Shown here: positions 22,248-28,084 of the stretch, piece after piece
Position numbering within the stretch: position 1 is the first letter of the stretch
Layout of the letters: each line of letters starts with the position of its first letter
NCBI GenBank assembly: GCA_029266035.1
Contig: JAJUFH010000021.1
Coordinates: 1 to 55,916, forward strand
Length of the DNA: 55,916 bases
Source of the DNA: Sinomicrobium sp.
GTDB taxonomy: Bacteria > Bacteroidota > Bacteroidia > Flavobacteriales > Flavobacteriaceae
Direction: 5' to 3'
Notes under the pieces: model-generated
What the model was told of the DNA's origin: nothing
Databases searched by the model: none
Seen by the model: only the letters and a program-made list of their open reading frames with translations
Made by a program: the position numbers and the translations under genes

Positions 22248-23273
22248 TTATTCTATTGCTGTAAAGTTTGCATCACTCAGCGTTTTCATAAATGCAATCA
22301 GCTCTTCTTTTTCTCCTTCTGTAAGAGGAATGCTATTGCCGTTTTCTTTAAGTATAGGATCGAGGTTGGGAGCGTCGATGACGCCATTGTCAAAATAGTC
22401 TAGCACCTCTTTTAGAGTAGAGAACTGTCCAAAACTCCCGTAAGGAGCAGTGTATTCTACATTTCTCAACGAGGGTACTCTGAAACTCATATAGTCTTCC
22501 GGTTTTCCGGTAACTCTACCGCGGCCGGCCTCATCGGGATTAGGGTTTGTTGGAAATCCTATATTTCTGAAACTTTGGTCGGTAAACAGTTCTGTACTGT
22601 GACAAGCTGCACATTTCTGCTCGAAAATTTGATAGCCTCTCAATTCGCTTGCCGTAAAAGCTTCTCCTTCGTTCCGCATCACCCTGTCGTATTTGCTGTT
22701 GGCCGAGATCAGGGTGTATTCGTATTGGGCGATGCTGTTGTAAATTCGTTGAGGACTTATCTCTTCGTCTCCAAATGCCTTGACAAATAGTTTTTTGTAG
22801 TCCGGGTCATTGCTGAGTTTGTCGATGATTTCGAGAATGGATGAATCCATTTCTTCATGGGTTACAATGGGTACCAGAGGTTGTTTTTCGAGTAGGAGGA
22901 TATTGCCGTCCCAGTTGTAAAATCTCATAAAGGACATATTCTGTATGGGCGGGGTGTTGCGCAGTCCTATCCTGTGGTGCACTCCTATGGCCTGGGGGCG
23001 ATTGTCGGTAAAGGCATTGGACTGTTGGTGGCAACTGGCGCAGGAAATACTGTTGTTACTGCTGAGTTTTTTGTCGTGAAACAGTTTTTTGCCCAGTTCC
23101 ACTCCGTATAGGGTAGGGGGATTGGCTTTTACCGAGGGATTGAGCTCGGGAAAACCTTTAGGAATATATATCGGGATCTCCGGATTGTCATAAAAAAATG
23201 AGGCTTCTGTGCCGTCTGCTTCACAGGACAGCAACAGCAGTACGATGGCGAAGATCCCGAATGTCTTTTTCAT
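22248..23273 (-). CDS. Di-heme cytochrome c peroxidase-like lipoprotein (MbnH/CcpA type)
   Basis: A 341-residue exported di-heme protein. The signal ends at LLSC (Cys17), so it is probably a lipoprotein. Two heme c sites are intact: CASCH (78-82) and CAACH (221-225). The order LFHDKKLSSNNSISCASCH, then RNTPPIQN, then NWDGN is standard for bacterial peroxidases and MauG-like enzymes. In methanobactin loci the related MbnH oxidises a Trp of its partner MbnP to kynurenine. Here an MbnP-family gene lies directly upstream (28-base gap), so that pairing is more likely than a plain H2O2-scavenging role. Last gene of the cluster. Confidence 0.92.
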   Translation of the reverse strand: MKKTFGIFAIVLLLLSCEADGTEASFFYDNPEIPIYIPKGFPELNPSVKANPPTLYGVELGKKLFHDKKLSSNNSISCASCHQQSNAFTDNRPQAIGVHHRIGLRNTPPIQNMSFMRFYNWDGNILLLEKQPLVPIVTHEEMDSSILEIIDKLSNDPDYKKLFVKAFGDEEISPQRIYNSIAQYEYTLISANSKYDRVMRNEGEAFTASELRGYQIFEQKCAACHSTELFTDQSFRNIGFPTNPNPDEAGRGRVTGKPEDYMSFRVPSLRNVEYTAPYGSFGQFSTLKEVLDYFDNGVIDAPNLDPILKENGNSIPLTEGEKEELIAFMKTLSDANFTAIE

Positions 23274-23301
23274 GCCTTATTTGTAGCTGGGTGTGGCTAT
23301 A

Positions 23302-24177
23302 TCAGTTGATTACTTCTTCTACAGAAAACATTCCGCTGAGGTCACTGGTGCCATTTCCGCCCAGATTATCCACAAATTTCAGCATAGCTTCAGCCGTATG
23401 AATGTTGGGTGTAGCATTGTCTTCTGCACTATCTCCAGTACTCAGGATAATAGTGTTGGTCTTTCCGCTGAGCAGTTTGTCAAAATCGGCCTTGATCGTT
23501 ATGGTGGGAGCATTTTTCCCTACTGTAGCATTTACTGGAAGGTTTAAGCTAATATCCCTGTAGGCATCCACTCCTTGCGTATAGCTCTCTTCGTCTCCCT
23601 TGGTACCGGTTACTGTACTCCCGGTATGAATAGACATTTGTTTGTGATCGGTATCGTAAAAGCCTTCCAGTTTTACAAACCGGTAGCCGCTTCCCCATTC
23701 CCACATCATTTCCGTATCGTTAGCTCCTGCTGTGGCATAGAAATTAGGAAACCTCAGTTCGTCTAGAGTATTCAGCTCTTGTTTGATTCCCAGACCAAAT
23801 TTTATACCGCTGTATTCTCCTGAAGGAATGTTGGTCAACACAAAATCTAAACTTTCCGATTTTGACTGGTCTATCACGGTTGCTCCTCTGTCGAGGTCGT
23901 TTATGTGATAGGGGAACTCCTCTCCGTTTTTACCTATCAGCCGGATGTTGCTGATCGCGTATTTCAGTTCTGAAAAATGATGAAGCTGTCCGGCTGCCGA
24001 TTTGTTTGTGGTAGCCTCTGCGGAGGTAGCATTTCCGAGAACAATACCCGTGTCTTTAAAGGTGTTGTGAAAGTGTAGGGTGATCTCGTTGGCGACGGGA
24101 TTGTCGTCGTTTGAGCTACAGGATAGTAGCGTAAATGTCAAGATTGCAAACAGTAGGAGGTTTTTGTAATATTTCAT
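23302..24177 (-). CDS. mbnP: MbnP-family copper-binding lipoprotein
   Basis: A 291-residue lipoprotein (lipobox LLSC, Cys20). The C-terminal two thirds match the MbnP family: FHNTF and FSELKYAISNIRL near the start, then MMWEWGSGYRFVKLEG (157-172), the family's most conserved stretch, which carries Trp159 and Trp161. In characterised MbnP a Trp is converted to kynurenine by the di-heme partner and then takes part in copper binding. Ser/Thr/Asp-rich loops fill the rest. An open frame runs 65 codons upstream into the receptor gene but is only a shadow; the start MKYYKN with a clear signal peptide is used. Followed by the di-heme peroxidase gene. Confidence 0.88.
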   Translation of the reverse strand: MKYYKNLLLFAILTFTLLSCSSNDDNPVANEITLHFHNTFKDTGIVLGNATSAEATTNKSAAGQLHHFSELKYAISNIRLIGKNGEEFPYHINDLDRGATVIDQSKSESLDFVLTNIPSGEYSGIKFGLGIKQELNTLDELRFPNFYATAGANDTEMMWEWGSGYRFVKLEGFYDTDHKQMSIHTGSTVTGTKGDEESYTQGVDAYRDISLNLPVNATVGKNAPTITIKADFDKLLSGKTNTIILSTGDSAEDNATPNIHTAEAMLKFVDNLGGNGTSDLSGMFSVEEVIN

Positions 24178-24206
24178 TGTTTTGATGTTAAGATTGATGT
24201 TTGTGT

Positions 24207-26189
24207 TTAAAAATTGAATTTCAGTGAGGTGAAAATGTTTCGTCCCATTCTCGGTATATTGCCCCAATCGGCATAAGTGCTGTAATATTGGTCGAACAGA
24301 TTTTCTGCACCCACTTGTACAACAGTTACGCAATCGCCCATTGCAAAAGTGTAATCGGCAGAGACATTCCATATCGCATAGGCCGGGGTTTGGTCTTCTC
24401 CGTAAAAGGGACTGTAATCCCTTTGTGTCGCATCGCCGTTAAAGGAGGTTTGTAGGCCAAATTGATCTACTTTAAAATGCAAGGTGGTTTGATAGCTCAA
24501 TGGGCGGATAAAAGGAAGGTTCCCATCGTTTGCATCTCTTCCTCGCGCATAGGTGAGTGCCGCTTCCCAATGCAGATTGGACAAAACTTGATAGCTGGCG
24601 TTTAGCGACAGATTGAAAAGGGTTGCATGGGGCAGAGAAGTATAGCCTTTTACTCCCACCGACTGATAATTCATAGGACTTCCGGCGTTTAAAATTTTCC
24701 CGACGATATAGTTTTTAATGTAGAAGTAGTTGACCTTGGCCTCTATGCTTGCTTTGTTGTTTTTAAATCCTGCACCGGCATTGATTTCATAGGAAATCTC
24801 GTTTTTTAGATTTGGATTTCCTATGTAGTCGTAGCGGTCAAAGCTGTTGTATATATAGTATCCGTAGCCCTCAGATACCGAAGGTGCCCTGTGCCCGTAT
24901 CCCGACCCGATACTAAATTGAAAGTCTCCTGTTTCCAGCAGGTATCCCAGGTGTAGGTTTGGGAGAAACCTCGTCTTTTCGGCAGCTGCTTCGGGGTGAA
25001 ATATACGGTTGAATTCGGCGTATTTTGAGCGGTTGTAATGCAGGGCGACAGCGCCTCCGAAATTCAACCGGCTCTTTTCTGAAATCTCCCAAGAGCCGTT
25101 GGCAGAAACCCCGGCAAAGCGGGTGGTGACCTCCGGCCAGCTATAGGCAAACATCGTCTTTTTGCTACGGTCTTGTGGGTACATATGCATTTCGGCTATC
25201 GAGAGGTTTTCATAGGCATTCAGTTGTATTTCGGAGGTGAATCGGCCTTGTTGCAGACTGGTTTTTGAAAGTAGACCATAGGTGGTGCTCCATCCGGGCA
25301 TATCCATGTGAACTAGGTTTTCAGGACGGGTGGTGTCGTCCATATAGTGTTCAATAGCATTGAAATAGAGCTTGGTTTCCCAGTTTTTTGCCAGCTTACC
25401 TTCAAATAGCTGTCGGTAAGAAACAGAGGTGATTATCGCCCTAGACAACCACAAATCCATAGGTAATGCGGGAAAACCGACATTTTTGGCTACGTCAAAA
25501 ATCGCATCGGCTCTCACCGAAGAGCGTTCTCCTGTTTTATAAGCCATTCCTAGAGAGGTGTTGAATTTACTAAACTGTGAGTGTTTCACTTCGTCATTAT
25601 TCCCATCCGAATAATTGCCTGCCTTTCTGTAGGAAACGCTTGCATCTGCCGCCAGCCTTTTGCCGGAGTAGGATATATTACCGAGGTTAAACCACTGATT
25701 GTTGTTGAACTCAAAACCGGACTGATAACTAGCGCCCCATTTTTTTTCCAATCCGAAAGGAGTATTTTTTCTGTTCAGGTCGATATTCCCTGCAATGGTG
25801 GCGCCGTGCAGACTGCCAGTCTGTCCTGATTTTATTGCTATACCCGAAAGGTTATTGCTCTCTACATACGAAGTAACGGGATCCATCTTATCGGTACAGG
25901 CACCGAAAATATGCATTCCATCTATGGTTACCGAGGCGCGTTCGCTACTCATATTGTGGAGTAAAGGCTCCCAGGCGAAACTGCCTCGTTTTATAAAACT
26001 TATATCGGTAGAGGAAGAGAGGTATTCATCTACAGTAACTCCCATTTTTAAATCGGTCTCTATCTTCTTTTTGGCTGTACCTACTACTTCTACTTCTTCT
26101 AGAGTTTGTACACTGTCTTTTTCTGCTGGTACGGTTTGAGCATTAGCGGCCATTGTTCCGAAAATTGCTATTGCGATGATAAACTTCAT
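24207..26189 (-). CDS. TonB-dependent copper receptor, OprC/NosA-like
   Basis: A 660-residue outer-membrane receptor with signal peptide (1-18, ANA-Q), plug (about 30-145) and beta-barrel ending in aromatic-rich SLKFNF. Copper type is indicated by CTDKM (Cys98-Met102, a CxxxM motif in IFGACTDKMDP) and by HYM (His281-x-Met283). These are the two halves of the CxxxM-HxM site described in Pseudomonas OprC. A further Met/His cluster, HMDM (294-297), lies nearby. There is no STN or carboxypeptidase-like N-terminal extension. It sits between the YtkA-like and MbnP genes with gaps of 4 and 29 bases. Confidence 0.9.
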   Translation of the reverse strand: MKFIIAIAIFGTMAANAQTVPAEKDSVQTLEEVEVVGTAKKKIETDLKMGVTVDEYLSSSTDISFIKRGSFAWEPLLHNMSSERASVTIDGMHIFGACTDKMDPVTSYVESNNLSGIAIKSGQTGSLHGATIAGNIDLNRKNTPFGLEKKWGASYQSGFEFNNNQWFNLGNISYSGKRLAADASVSYRKAGNYSDGNNDEVKHSQFSKFNTSLGMAYKTGERSSVRADAIFDVAKNVGFPALPMDLWLSRAIITSVSYRQLFEGKLAKNWETKLYFNAIEHYMDDTTRPENLVHMDMPGWSTTYGLLSKTSLQQGRFTSEIQLNAYENLSIAEMHMYPQDRSKKTMFAYSWPEVTTRFAGVSANGSWEISEKSRLNFGGAVALHYNRSKYAEFNRIFHPEAAAEKTRFLPNLHLGYLLETGDFQFSIGSGYGHRAPSVSEGYGYYIYNSFDRYDYIGNPNLKNEISYEINAGAGFKNNKASIEAKVNYFYIKNYIVGKILNAGSPMNYQSVGVKGYTSLPHATLFNLSLNASYQVLSNLHWEAALTYARGRDANDGNLPFIRPLSYQTTLHFKVDQFGLQTSFNGDATQRDYSPFYGEDQTPAYAIWNVSADYTFAMGDCVTVVQVGAENLFDQYYSTYADWGNIPRMGRNIFTSLKFNF

Positions 26190-26193
26190 ACTG

Positions 26194-27111
26194 TCAGAAT
26201 AAAATATCGATAAACAATTCGCTTTTTACTCCTTCCACTCCTGGAGTAAAATCTGAAGGTACTTTAGTCCCTTTTACGATTTTTCCGCTTTGGTCCAACA
26301 AGATAAAGTTGAGCGTCCAGTTGCCAGTCATGGTGTAGTTTACTACTCCGTGATACAGGCTGTCGCTTTGCTGAGTCAAATCTCTGTTGTTGGGAGAAGA
26401 GTGGTTTCCCATAGAGGGCTCTGGCATTCTCGGATCTAATTGCAGTGTATACCCATTTACCCGACTGTATGAAAAATGAGAAGAGTCGGGAAAGGTCTCG
26501 GGTTCTCCTGTGGGGTGATTGCGCTTGTAAATACCAGCTACGATATCGTTTTCGGCCACTTCTGGCTTTCTCGGAGCTATAAGAGCTATGGTGTAGGCTT
26601 CGCCATCATTTCCTGTAAACGAGGTCATATTCAGGTTTTTATTGGTCTGCTCGTTTACGGTGATGGAGCCATTGGTTTGGTAGGACACTCCGTTTACTGT
26701 AAAACCGATATAGATTTGCCAATCGCCCTTCTCACTCTCTTCGGTAAACACCGCATAGCCTTCAAAATACCCGTCGTCGTTGTGAGTAAGGTGGTATTGA
26801 TGTGGGCAAGACAGATTGCTTCCATCGGCATACCTGCTCATAATTGGAAGGGAAGTTACTGTCGAGGCGTTTGCGTTTTTACCCTTAGAGTCTTCAATTT
26901 TTACGCGAATTTCGTTATATCCCTTGCGGAATTCGCCGTTTGGGACTTCAATACTGATATTGTAGCCTTGGGTGTGGAGAGTGGTTGCCTCTTCAAATTC
27001 GTATCGATCAGTTTCTGAATTACCGGCCTCCGCTTCGTAATCTGCTTTATCTATGGTACATGACACAGCGGTACAGCATAACGCCATGACAAAAAATATA
27101 AATTTTTGCAT
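26194..27111 (-). CDS. YtkA-like lipoprotein of the copper cluster
   Basis: A 305-residue lipoprotein (Cys18 in TAVSCTI). It contains two beta-sandwich regions. The first (about 35-150) resembles YtkA/FixH-type periplasmic domains, with PIMSRYADGSNLSCPHQ (Met, Cys and His close together) as a possible metal site, followed by GYFEGYAVF and GDWQIYIGFTVNG. The second (about 165-305) has PEPSMGNHSSPN and a GNWTLNF strand. The function is unknown, but position directly ahead of the copper-type receptor (4-base gap) suggests metal capture at the cell surface or periplasm. The start MQKFIFF was chosen over an ATG 16 codons upstream because of the signal peptide. Confidence 0.72.
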   Translation of the reverse strand: MQKFIFFVMALCCTAVSCTIDKADYEAEAGNSETDRYEFEEATTLHTQGYNISIEVPNGEFRKGYNEIRVKIEDSKGKNANASTVTSLPIMSRYADGSNLSCPHQYHLTHNDDGYFEGYAVFTEESEKGDWQIYIGFTVNGVSYQTNGSITVNEQTNKNLNMTSFTGNDGEAYTIALIAPRKPEVAENDIVAGIYKRNHPTGEPETFPDSSHFSYSRVNGYTLQLDPRMPEPSMGNHSSPNNRDLTQQSDSLYHGVVNYTMTGNWTLNFILLDQSGKIVKGTKVPSDFTPGVEGVKSELFIDILF

Positions 27112-27167
27112 TTTTGGTGATGTTGGATGAGTATGGCTATTTCCGAGAATCCGGAACAACGATAGTT

Positions 27168-27605
27168 CTATTTTTCCGATATTGCCTTTTGGGCTTTAGC
27201 CATGCTCTCTTCGATGAGGTCTCTCATCTTGTTGACCTCTTCGCGTTCGGTTTTCAGCAATTCGATATCCCTTTGCAACTCTTCAGTAGTCTTTTGCAAG
27301 GGATCGGTGCCATAGGGAAATTTTTCACTGAAGTCTTTCATCCAATCCATCATGGTGGTATGCGATAATTTCAAACTGTCCAGTATCCCGGTATGTGACG
27401 ATGAAACAGAATCTGTTTCTTCTTTTAGGGTTTTGGACAGCTTGTTGAGCTCTCCCATTTTAGGCATTACCTCGTCGTGAACGGCGATGATTTCTTGATA
27501 GAGTTCTTTGTATTTGTTAACTTCCTCAGAAGCTTTGTCACTGCAAGAGATAGTTGCCGTAAATGCGATAACCGACAACAGAGAAAAAAGGGTATACGAT
27601 CTCAT
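27168..27605 (-). CDS. Coiled-coil lipoprotein
   Basis: A 145-residue lipoprotein (lipobox TISC, Cys21). The mature part is almost all helical and heptad-like: KYKELYQEIIAVHDEVMPKM, then about 95-140 with repeated Glu/Lys and Leu/Ile spacing. His and Met residues occur (HDEVMPKM, SHTTMMDWMKD). Similar proteins in Flavobacteria are usually labelled viral A-type inclusion protein because of their coiled coils, which is not a functional assignment. It starts the five-gene run down to the di-heme peroxidase and has a palindrome and direct repeats upstream. Confidence 0.75.
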   Translation of the reverse strand: MRSYTLFSLLSVIAFTATISCSDKASEEVNKYKELYQEIIAVHDEVMPKMGELNKLSKTLKEETDSVSSSHTGILDSLKLSHTTMMDWMKDFSEKFPYGTDPLQKTTEELQRDIELLKTEREEVNKMRDLIEESMAKAQKAISEK

Positions 27606-27643
27606 TGAATATATTTTTTGAATAAATAAATGTGATTGTCACC

Positions 27644-27697
27644 TACCGGAAAATTGTTTGATTACCGGAAGGGTGATGTTGTAATGATAACCATTAC
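27644..27697 (-). promoter_or_regulatory. Candidate operator region ahead of the copper-type cluster
   Basis: Two direct copies of TACCGGAA (27644-27651 and 27663-27670) are spaced 19 bases start to start, about two helical turns. Next to them is a 17-base near-perfect palindrome, GTAATGATAACCATTAC (27681-27697, one mismatch pair). Both lie 39-92 bases upstream of the coiled-coil lipoprotein gene. They could bind a metal regulator; neither matches a box I can name. Confidence 0.35.
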
Positions 27698-27703
27698 GAC
27701 TGC

Positions 27704-28072
27704 TTAAGACAACGAGATCGGAGGTTTGAGGAAGGTTTTGATAAAAAGTGAGTTGTAGTGTTGCTGCTTGAGGCAGAAGTTTTCTTGTCGATGGGCGACG
27801 GTTGGGGTATCGGGCGCTTTTGTAACGATATTCTGGTGGAAGAGAAGTTGGTGTTCAAATTTTACGGTAAGAGTTTTATCTTTCTCGTCGTTTTCCACCT
27901 CTTTTTTTACTGCACTCATCAGGTAGCACTTGCCGAAACACTGCTCTTCAGGTTTGTCTTTGTTGATACATAGTACCTGCGATATATAGTCGTAATTTAG
28001 CGCATAATCCAGAAAGGGAAAGGCCGGTTTTAGACTGATAACTACCGCTACTATGAAGAAAAACTGTTTCAC
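27704..28072 (-). CDS. Small exported Cys-rich protein of the copper cluster
   Basis: A 122-residue protein. A hydrophobic N-terminus (MKQFFFIVAVVISLKPAFPF) suggests a signal peptide or anchor. The core motif CINKDKPEEQCFGKCYLM has three cysteines spaced C-x10-C-x3-C, a pattern recurring in short Bacteroidota proteins near metal-transport genes. A His/Lys/Gln-rich tail follows (FEHQLLFHQN, VAHRQENFC). The function is unknown; metal binding is a reasonable guess. A -7 element (28077-28084) lies so close to the start codon that the transcript would be nearly leaderless. Confidence 0.68.
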   Translation of the reverse strand: MKQFFFIVAVVISLKPAFPFLDYALNYDYISQVLCINKDKPEEQCFGKCYLMSAVKKEVENDEKDKTLTVKFEHQLLFHQNIVTKAPDTPTVAHRQENFCLKQQHYNSLFIKTFLKPPISLS

Positions 28073-28076
28073 AGTA

Positions 28077-28084
28077 CAAAAGTA
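28077..28084 (-). promoter_or_regulatory. -7 element ahead of the Cys-rich protein gene
   Basis: On the minus strand TACTTTTG matches TAnnTTTG and ends 4 bases before the ATG at 28072. If used, it would give a leaderless or almost leaderless mRNA. Confidence 0.4.

Follow-up and report, generated by a model that had tools for sequence, protein, structure and literature searches.

The window analysed here is a stretch of 55,916 nucleotides from Sinomicrobium sp. (assembly GCA_029266035.1, contig JAJUFH010000021.1), and it harbors a six-gene operon spanning positions 22248 to 28072, with all open reading frames (ORFs) on the minus strand. In the order of transcription, the genes encode a short Cys-rich protein (CysR), a coiled-coil lipoprotein, a YtkA-like lipoprotein, an OprC-like TonB-dependent receptor, an MbnP-family lipoprotein and an MbnH-like diheme lipoprotein. 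A DUF4159 gene lies upstream, 23 bases from CysR, and the other side is bordered by a convergent lysA gene. An initial annotation had proposed a copper uptake cluster of six same-strand genes, in which a receptor and an MbnP/MbnH pair are joined by three extra proteins, and this layout was confirmed. The locus represents a real and conserved operon, whose function is most likely copper import.

To assess conservation across Bacteroidota, named genomes were searched with an alignment of the receptor, yielding 549 confirmed loci, of which the best 80, ranked by closeness to the receptor of the window, were compared. The genes for the YtkA-like protein, the receptor, MbnP and MbnH occurred in the same order and on one strand in 80/80 loci; because these loci were selected by receptor closeness, the fixed order holds within this lineage and says nothing about how common the arrangement is. 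The set covers Flavobacterium, Chryseobacterium, Winogradskyella, Sphingobacterium, Maribacter, Parapedobacter and other genera. CysR was found in 78 of the 80 loci, upstream of YtkA in 76 and between the receptor and MbnP in 35, the latter position representing a second copy that the window does not have. The coiled-coil gene was present in a single locus (1/80) and was rejected as a core member of the operon. Genes outside the operon were variable, the commonest outside family being other TonB receptors (27/80 loci).

In a phylum sample of 395 genomes, with at most three receptor candidates scored per genome, the receptor was detected at E up to 1e-60 in 23. Forty loci around receptor or YtkA matches in this sample comprised the full operon in 8, CysR-YtkA-receptor in 13, YtkA-receptor without MbnP in 13, YtkA only in 3, and MbnP-MbnH beside YtkA and/or receptor genes in a different order in 3 (L130, L134 and L144). 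Starting instead from MbnP, we found this gene in 99 of 199 genomes of the host family, at 110 places, 81 of which were examined, the window included. The receptor was present in 10 of these 81 loci (type A); in 22, CysR occurred without the receptor and MbnH was followed by a different outer-membrane-type protein (type B); the other 49 had neither receptor nor CysR (type C). MbnH adjoined MbnP in 80 of the 81, the exception being L077.

The receptor (24207 to 26189) carries CTDKM at residues 98-102 and HYM at residues 281-283, as originally annotated, and the proposal that these constitute the CxxxM-HxM site of OprC was upheld by alignment. OprC entries are the sole solved structures that match the receptor by sequence at E up to 1 (best E 7.5e-11). 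On PDB 6fok, OprC of Pseudomonas aeruginosa, CTDKM falls on the plug motif and HYM on the barrel motif, so that Cys98/Met102 and His281/Met283 are in register with Cys143/Met147 and His323/Met325, the reported copper ligands of OprC (PMC8610252). Each of the four residues is invariant in 46/46 aligned Bacteroidota receptors, which were collected by similarity to the receptor of the window or to its YtkA neighbour, and so are Met295, Met297, Met334, Met336 and Met346, which may correspond to the methionine track that leads to the site in OprC. The mere occurrence of the motifs is weak evidence, as 67 of 5000 shuffled receptor sequences also contained both. TIGR01778 was the best-scoring NCBIfam model, but its score of 101.8 bits is far below the cut-off of 472.45, which suggests an OprC-like build without membership of that equivalog. 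The receptor further differs from OprC in having a YtkA-like lipoprotein gene before it and MbnP-MbnH after it. Its closest named relative is from Sinomicrobium sp. N-1-3-6 (79% identity). An OprC-like CxxxM-HxM receptor, G2EC70, has already been reported in the flavobacterium Bizionia argentinensis, although the main text of that report mentions neither MbnP nor YtkA (PMC11213822).

The MbnP gene (23302 to 24177, 291 amino acids) starts at ATG 24177; the mechanically called ORF opens earlier, at 24372, inside the receptor gene, and the residue numbers originally given for Trp159 and Trp161 are correct with the former start. The protein passes Pfam PF20243 (E=1.3e-35; 123.4 bits, cut-off 27) and scores under the cut-off of NCBIfam TIGR04052 (63.2 bits vs 140). 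A PDB search with the single sequence returned no match. Using an AlphaFold model (mean pLDDT 79.6, with the Trp loop at 155-164 below 50), the only Foldseek matches at E<=0.001 were the six chains of PDB 7l6g, MbnP of Methylosinus trichosporium (best 4.7e-9, TM 0.53-0.56), and a family profile placed WEW on WNW and His184 on a His of the same structure (E=0.0046). Thus the window protein shares the fold, the WxW motif and the His with Methylosinus MbnP, but the four-Cys motif that appears in the molecule name of 7l6g was not found in it, the lipobox Cys being its single Cys. For the MbnP and MbnH residue counts, rows shorter than 200 (MbnP) or 280 (MbnH) residues and duplicate type A sequences were excluded; two of the three locus sets were also cleared of rows that scored less than 100 bits. 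Trp159, Trp161 and His184 were each present in 93/93 receptor-linked, that is type A, MbnP sequences; among 74 other MbnP sequences, Trp159 was kept in 70, Trp161 in 42 and His184 in all 74. His66 (92/93) and His260 (91/93) are features of type A and may be regarded as candidate extra ligands.

The MbnH gene (22248 to 23273) encodes the expected two CxxCH heme sites, Cys78-His82 and Cys221-His225, and its product matches Pfam CCP_MauG PF03150 above the cut-off (E=2.6e-51). NCBIfam TIGR04039 is its best model, though with 206.8 bits against a cut-off of 362.85. The two Pfam matches, together with the 7l6g fold and profile match, support the identity of the MbnP/MbnH pair, and the adjoining diheme MauG-like partner is a likeness to the Methylosinus trichosporium pair. 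Type A MbnH keeps both CxxCH motifs, the inter-heme Trp121 (92/93, with Leu in L218) and Glu141 (93/93). Position 294 of this MbnH, a Phe, corresponds in a gap-free alignment to chain position 294 in MauG; its counterpart in PDB 6e1c, which we take to be MbnH of Methylosinus trichosporium, is a Tyr. At this position, Tyr occurs in 74/74 other MbnH sequences but in 0/92 of type A, which has Phe in 66, Leu in 25 and Met in 1, with one gap; the gapped row is L219, a split ORF gapped at its C-terminal positions, leaving 92 rather than 93 scored rows. The adjacent Tyr293 is present in 92/92. The PYMHDG of other MbnH is replaced in type A by PYG-S-F-G or a near form (PYGSFG in the window), with loss of the HDG motif. 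A tree computed from 63 out of 167 MbnH sequences, with the trait columns kept in, placed type A in one clade with 100/100 support and a branch length of 0.99. A general tie between Tyr loss and receptor association was rejected, because the MbnH of L130, L134 and L144, which lie beside the receptor and/or YtkA, keep the Tyr. As a separate observation, the split MbnH at L219 (11825-12739), from a Sphingobacterium multivorum record, consists of two ORFs, reflecting either sequencing error or decay.

The YtkA-like lipoprotein (26194 to 27111, ATG start, 305 amino acids) scores 24.9 bits with Pfam YtkA PF13115, just below the 25.9-bit cut-off. In its C-terminal YtkA-like stretch, Met229, Met234, Met261 and Trp265 are present in 92/92 sequences from the operon, and each of them in 29 to 31 of the 31 distant homologs; His237 is found in 92/92 and 20/31, respectively. 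A Foldseek search with its model placed the Helicobacter pylori copper protein CrdA at rank 11 (TM 0.82 on a 108-residue target, approximately one domain length), and since antibodies and further Ig-like proteins made up most of the list, this match to CrdA is no more than suggestive. PDB sequence searches with this protein gave only chance-like or Ig-fold matches. In Bacillus subtilis, the YtkA domains of YtkA/CtaK and YcnJ are reported to support CuA assembly and copper delivery (PMC13344008); the likeness lies in the YtkA-like domain, and the difference in the 305-residue lipoprotein build and in the tie of the gene to an outer-membrane receptor. The lineage-specific coiled-coil lipoprotein (27168 to 27605) keeps HDEVMPKM and MMxWM in 4/4 aligned sequences. 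Under a permissive pattern, lipobox-like starts were recognised in 78/80 YtkA-like, 80/80 MbnP and 80/80 MbnH proteins, and acidic residues often come after these starts. These residues resemble the Flavobacterium surface-export signal SDDFE (PMC5080379), making it plausible that the three lipoproteins are surface-exposed.

CysR (27704 to 28072, GTG start, 122 amino acids) heads the operon. It has a hydrophobic N-terminus by eye, the motif C-x9-C-x-G-x-C (Cys35/Cys45/Cys49) and Pro-Pro at 117-118 within the C-terminal KPPISLS, and it gave no convincing match to Pfam or NCBIfam. We collected 221 distinct members, the majority of which stem from loci that had been selected by their MbnP or receptor genes. 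The pattern C-x(7-12)-C-x-[GA]-x-C occurs in 212/221, and a Pro-Pro lies within 20 residues of the end in 220/221, followed by only 1-5 residues in 203/220 and mostly preceded by His, Pro, Arg or Lys. The distance from the last Cys to Pro-Pro is 62-72 (sd 2.0; 211 measured). Mean column identity is 30%, with little conservation outside the Cys motif and the Pro-Pro at the end. With ORF starts set as far upstream as possible, the gap from CysR to the next same-strand ORF had a median of 162 nt (220 measured), or 257 nt before YtkA, compared with -17 nt between YtkA and the receptor.

The initial annotation had regarded the YtkA-like, coiled-coil and Cys-rich partners as undescribed, which did not hold for YtkA, given the Bacillus domains above, nor, as to its kind, for CysR. 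CutF-like proteins have been defined by rule as shorter than 150 residues, with CxxxC, a Pro-Pro within 15 residues of the end and a same-strand next gene within 1000 nt, giving 5,334 cases, of which 19-40%, depending on normalisation, are from Bacteroidota (PMC9973294). The window CysR, at 122 residues, with CxxxC at Cys45/Cys49, Pro-Pro at 117-118 and the next gene 98 nt downstream, fits these published rules for CutF/CruR-type copper-sensing leader ORFs. Like CruR of Bordetella pertussis and CutF of Rhodobacter capsulatus, it is a short, apparently exported-type protein with a Cys motif and a Pro-Pro near the end; these likewise stand at the head of copper operons, in which OprC-type receptors, SCO and MbnPH-like genes can occur (PMC9426467, PMC9973294). 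In CruR, CXXC is needed for copper control and the C-terminal RAPP for expression (PMC9426467), CruR is reported to arrest translation in vitro (PMC12992588), and the products of the CruR/CutF leader ORFs escaped detection in cells (PMC9426467, PMC9973294). CysR differs from both in having no DUF2946 match, in the residues before its Pro-Pro and in the second copy inside the operon of 35/80 relatives. In the literature covered, we found no experimentally tested leader from Bacteroidota.

For a less biased view, 40 loci were drawn from the 58 CysR matches that 118 genomes of the phylum contained, after setting aside sites where the operon or the receptor pair had been located before. The next gene was MbnP in 10, MbnH alone in 1, a receptor in 14 (CxxxM and HxM present in 12/12 scored for the motifs, the other two being unscored), an outer-membrane-type protein with a Cys motif in 4 and a gene of some other kind in 5; the remaining 6 are considered below. 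SCO1 and YHS genes recur near CysR, with Pfam support at L243, L227 and L192 (SCO1 at L243 and L227).

The sequence TAnnTTTG is a consensus from Bacteroidota promoter work. A scan from 100 bases before to 15 after each start, with the CysR start set 34 residues before the first Cys, located such a box at 45/77 first CysR genes (7% in shuffled sequence), compared with YtkA 1/78, receptor 0/80, MbnP 1/80 and MbnH 1/80. In the window, TACTTTTG, a TAnnTTTG-type -7 box on the minus strand at 28077 to 28084, lies 12 to 5 bases before the CysR GTG at 28072. This near-restriction to the first CysR fits a single transcript starting there. A sigma-70-type consensus scan returned 12 sites against 11.8 expected, and terminator-like sites numbered 13 against 7.0 expected, 11 of them on the plus strand.

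Several arrangements around CysR stand apart from the operon. At L254, CysR directly precedes a 468-residue ORF of the MbnH family, and no MbnP was matched there. At seven loci (L247, L242, L251, L249, L261, L252 and L259), CysR neighbours a second class of receptor, which carries ACPNRMD, with the letters of the OprC plug motif, plus an HLM barrel motif. At L237, L245 and L257, CysR heads a TonB receptor lacking CxxxM-HxM and a PepSY_TM-type gene (with Pfam support for L257), the arrangement reported for crtA-crpH in Bordetella.

We interpret the locus as a methanobactin-independent operon for the import of ionic copper under copper limitation and, judging from sequence and models, assign this reading, together with the mechanism proposed below, a probability of approximately 0.7. 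The fixed operon, together with the CxxxM-HxM receptors and SCO1 genes near the CysR family, supports copper uptake as initially annotated. Independence from methanobactin was also sustained, as a search for the MbnB family (MbnB_TglH_ChrH, PF05114) found no match in the 96.8%-complete draft genome, a difference from methanobactin operons; MbnP/MbnH pairs outside methanobactin loci have been known since 2013 (PMC3621798). In the proposed model, the YtkA-like and MbnP lipoproteins would retain copper at the outer membrane, probably on the external side, for the receptor to carry into the periplasm. MbnH would oxidise the Trp159/Trp161 loop of MbnP, such that a copper ligand is built or tuned together with His184. 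CysR would serve as a nascent-chain copper sensor of the CutF/CruR type, with the ribosome pausing at the C-terminal Pro-Pro and copper on the Cys motif altering expression of the remaining operon; by analogy with CruR, copper would switch it off. The second CysR before MbnP-MbnH in 35/80 relatives would gate that pair separately.

Import of another ligand, such as a chelated metal, zinc or haem, or protection against copper and peroxide, would agree with additional NCBIfam matches of the receptor to haem/haemoglobin receptors (97 bits) and ZnuD (30 bits) and with the placement of MbnH in a peroxidase superfamily. Yet OprC entries alone match the receptor among solved structures at E up to 1, none of the 46 receptors departs from the four copper ligands of OprC or from the five additional Met, and SCO1 neighbours occur in several loci, leaving such a function improbable. 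It is also unlikely that CysR acts as a mature periplasmic chaperone or membrane-anchored copper-binding protein rather than as a leader ORF. Its conserved Cys motif, hydrophobic N-terminus and frequent position beside copper genes are compatible with such a role, but the low conservation elsewhere, the Pro-Pro so close to the C-terminus at a fixed spacing, the long downstream gap and a promoter box before CysR and almost no other operon gene count against it. The fixed spacing, terminal Pro-Pro, long gap and promoter box instead resemble CruR/CutF leader ORFs.

The expectation that MbnH converts Trp to kynurenine, which the initial annotation carried over from MbnH/MbnP work, is weakened even though the pair itself stands. 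Under such standard chemistry, MbnH would make kynurenine from one Trp of WxW through a bis-Fe(IV) state, as expected from Methylosinus, with the change to Phe294 offset by Tyr293 or another ligand. This is possible, though we consider it less likely than not: it accords with the retention of both hemes, Trp121, Glu141 and Tyr293, and with the match of the MbnP fold, WxW and His184 to 7l6g. It is at odds with the invariant Tyr of the other MbnH and its absence throughout type A, at a position that the gap-free alignment sets on MauG 294, with the replacement of HDG, and with the reported absence of the bis-Fe(IV) near-infrared signature from BthA Y463H, in line with what was described for MauG Y294H (PMC6405878). 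The absence of Tyr at this position means either that the second heme takes its ligand from a different residue or that the chemistry is not the same, and with HDG also lost, Trp-to-kynurenine chemistry should not be assumed.

Several observations weigh against the copper-import model and its leader-based control. The altered axial position and lost HDG of type A MbnH, which also set it apart from the Methylosinus trichosporium enzyme, speak against taking standard MbnH chemistry for granted. The receptor, MbnP and MbnH are all below their NCBIfam cut-offs. From CysR, 17 of the 40 further loci lead into genes without a tested copper motif or recognised copper role, and 6 of these 17 encode TonB receptors from a group in which CxxxM-HxM is missing from the aligned rows. 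The Cys-to-Pro-Pro spacing of 66 in CysR departs from the 45 of CruR/CutF. PF11162 (DUF2946) did not match CysR in its own genome, and no CysR place was among the PF11162 places; a DUF2946 origin of CysR was thus tested and is unsupported. The promoter box is missing from 32/77 first-CysR loci and was seen at the second CysR in 2/36, which is chance level. Finally, RNA of the CysR-YtkA gap folds strongly, with a mean z of -2.67 over 25 cases, but folding is stronger still in the control, the short MbnP-MbnH gap (mean z -3.48 against shuffles; 22 cases, L152-L231), indicating that the folding test is unspecific and that no specific attenuator hairpin was demonstrated.

A more far-reaching combination, doubtful when taken as a whole, would be a self-regulating Bacteroidota copper importer in which one or two leaders sense copper while ribosome-bound and gate the importer and a surface MbnP/MbnH pair separately. 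Its Tyr-less MbnH would generate a Trp-derived ligand at WxW without MauG-type bis-Fe(IV) chemistry, or would yield a product other than kynurenine, e.g. hydroxylated Trp or a link between two Trp; once loaded, MbnP would pass its copper straight on to the OprC-like receptor. The individual parts of the operon are of known kinds; what appears to be new is that they are combined in a fixed way, with a leader gene at the head and an MbnH lineage that is altered. We found no prior description of this gene combination in the mainly open-access literature consulted, and an earlier report may have escaped us. Copper import by Gram-negative bacteria is poorly understood, and the operon in Flavobacterium, Chryseobacterium, Sphingobacterium and relatives would offer a tractable non-methanotroph system tying MbnP/MbnH to a copper receptor. 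The altered MbnH provides a direct test of the need for the axial Tyr in protein Trp oxidation, and CysR gives a clear prediction on translational copper control in Bacteroidota.

The remaining MbnP contexts of the host family show two further recurrent neighbourhoods. In the 22 type B loci, MbnH is followed by an outer-membrane-type protein of 315-330 residues with a Cys-rich CxxCGCSxSxGSxGF start, and a similar protein directly follows CysR elsewhere; these proteins, exemplified by L063:10514-11509 and L238:3623-4576, gave no Pfam match. Among the 49 type C loci (L038-L111, e.g. L107 and L110), 45 share a conserved neighbourhood without an obvious copper gene, in which MbnP-MbnH is flanked on one side by a repeat lipoprotein that Pfam does not match and on the other by iron-sulfur genes of the SUF type. 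Representatives of these loci contain SufBD and Fe-S biosynthesis domains.

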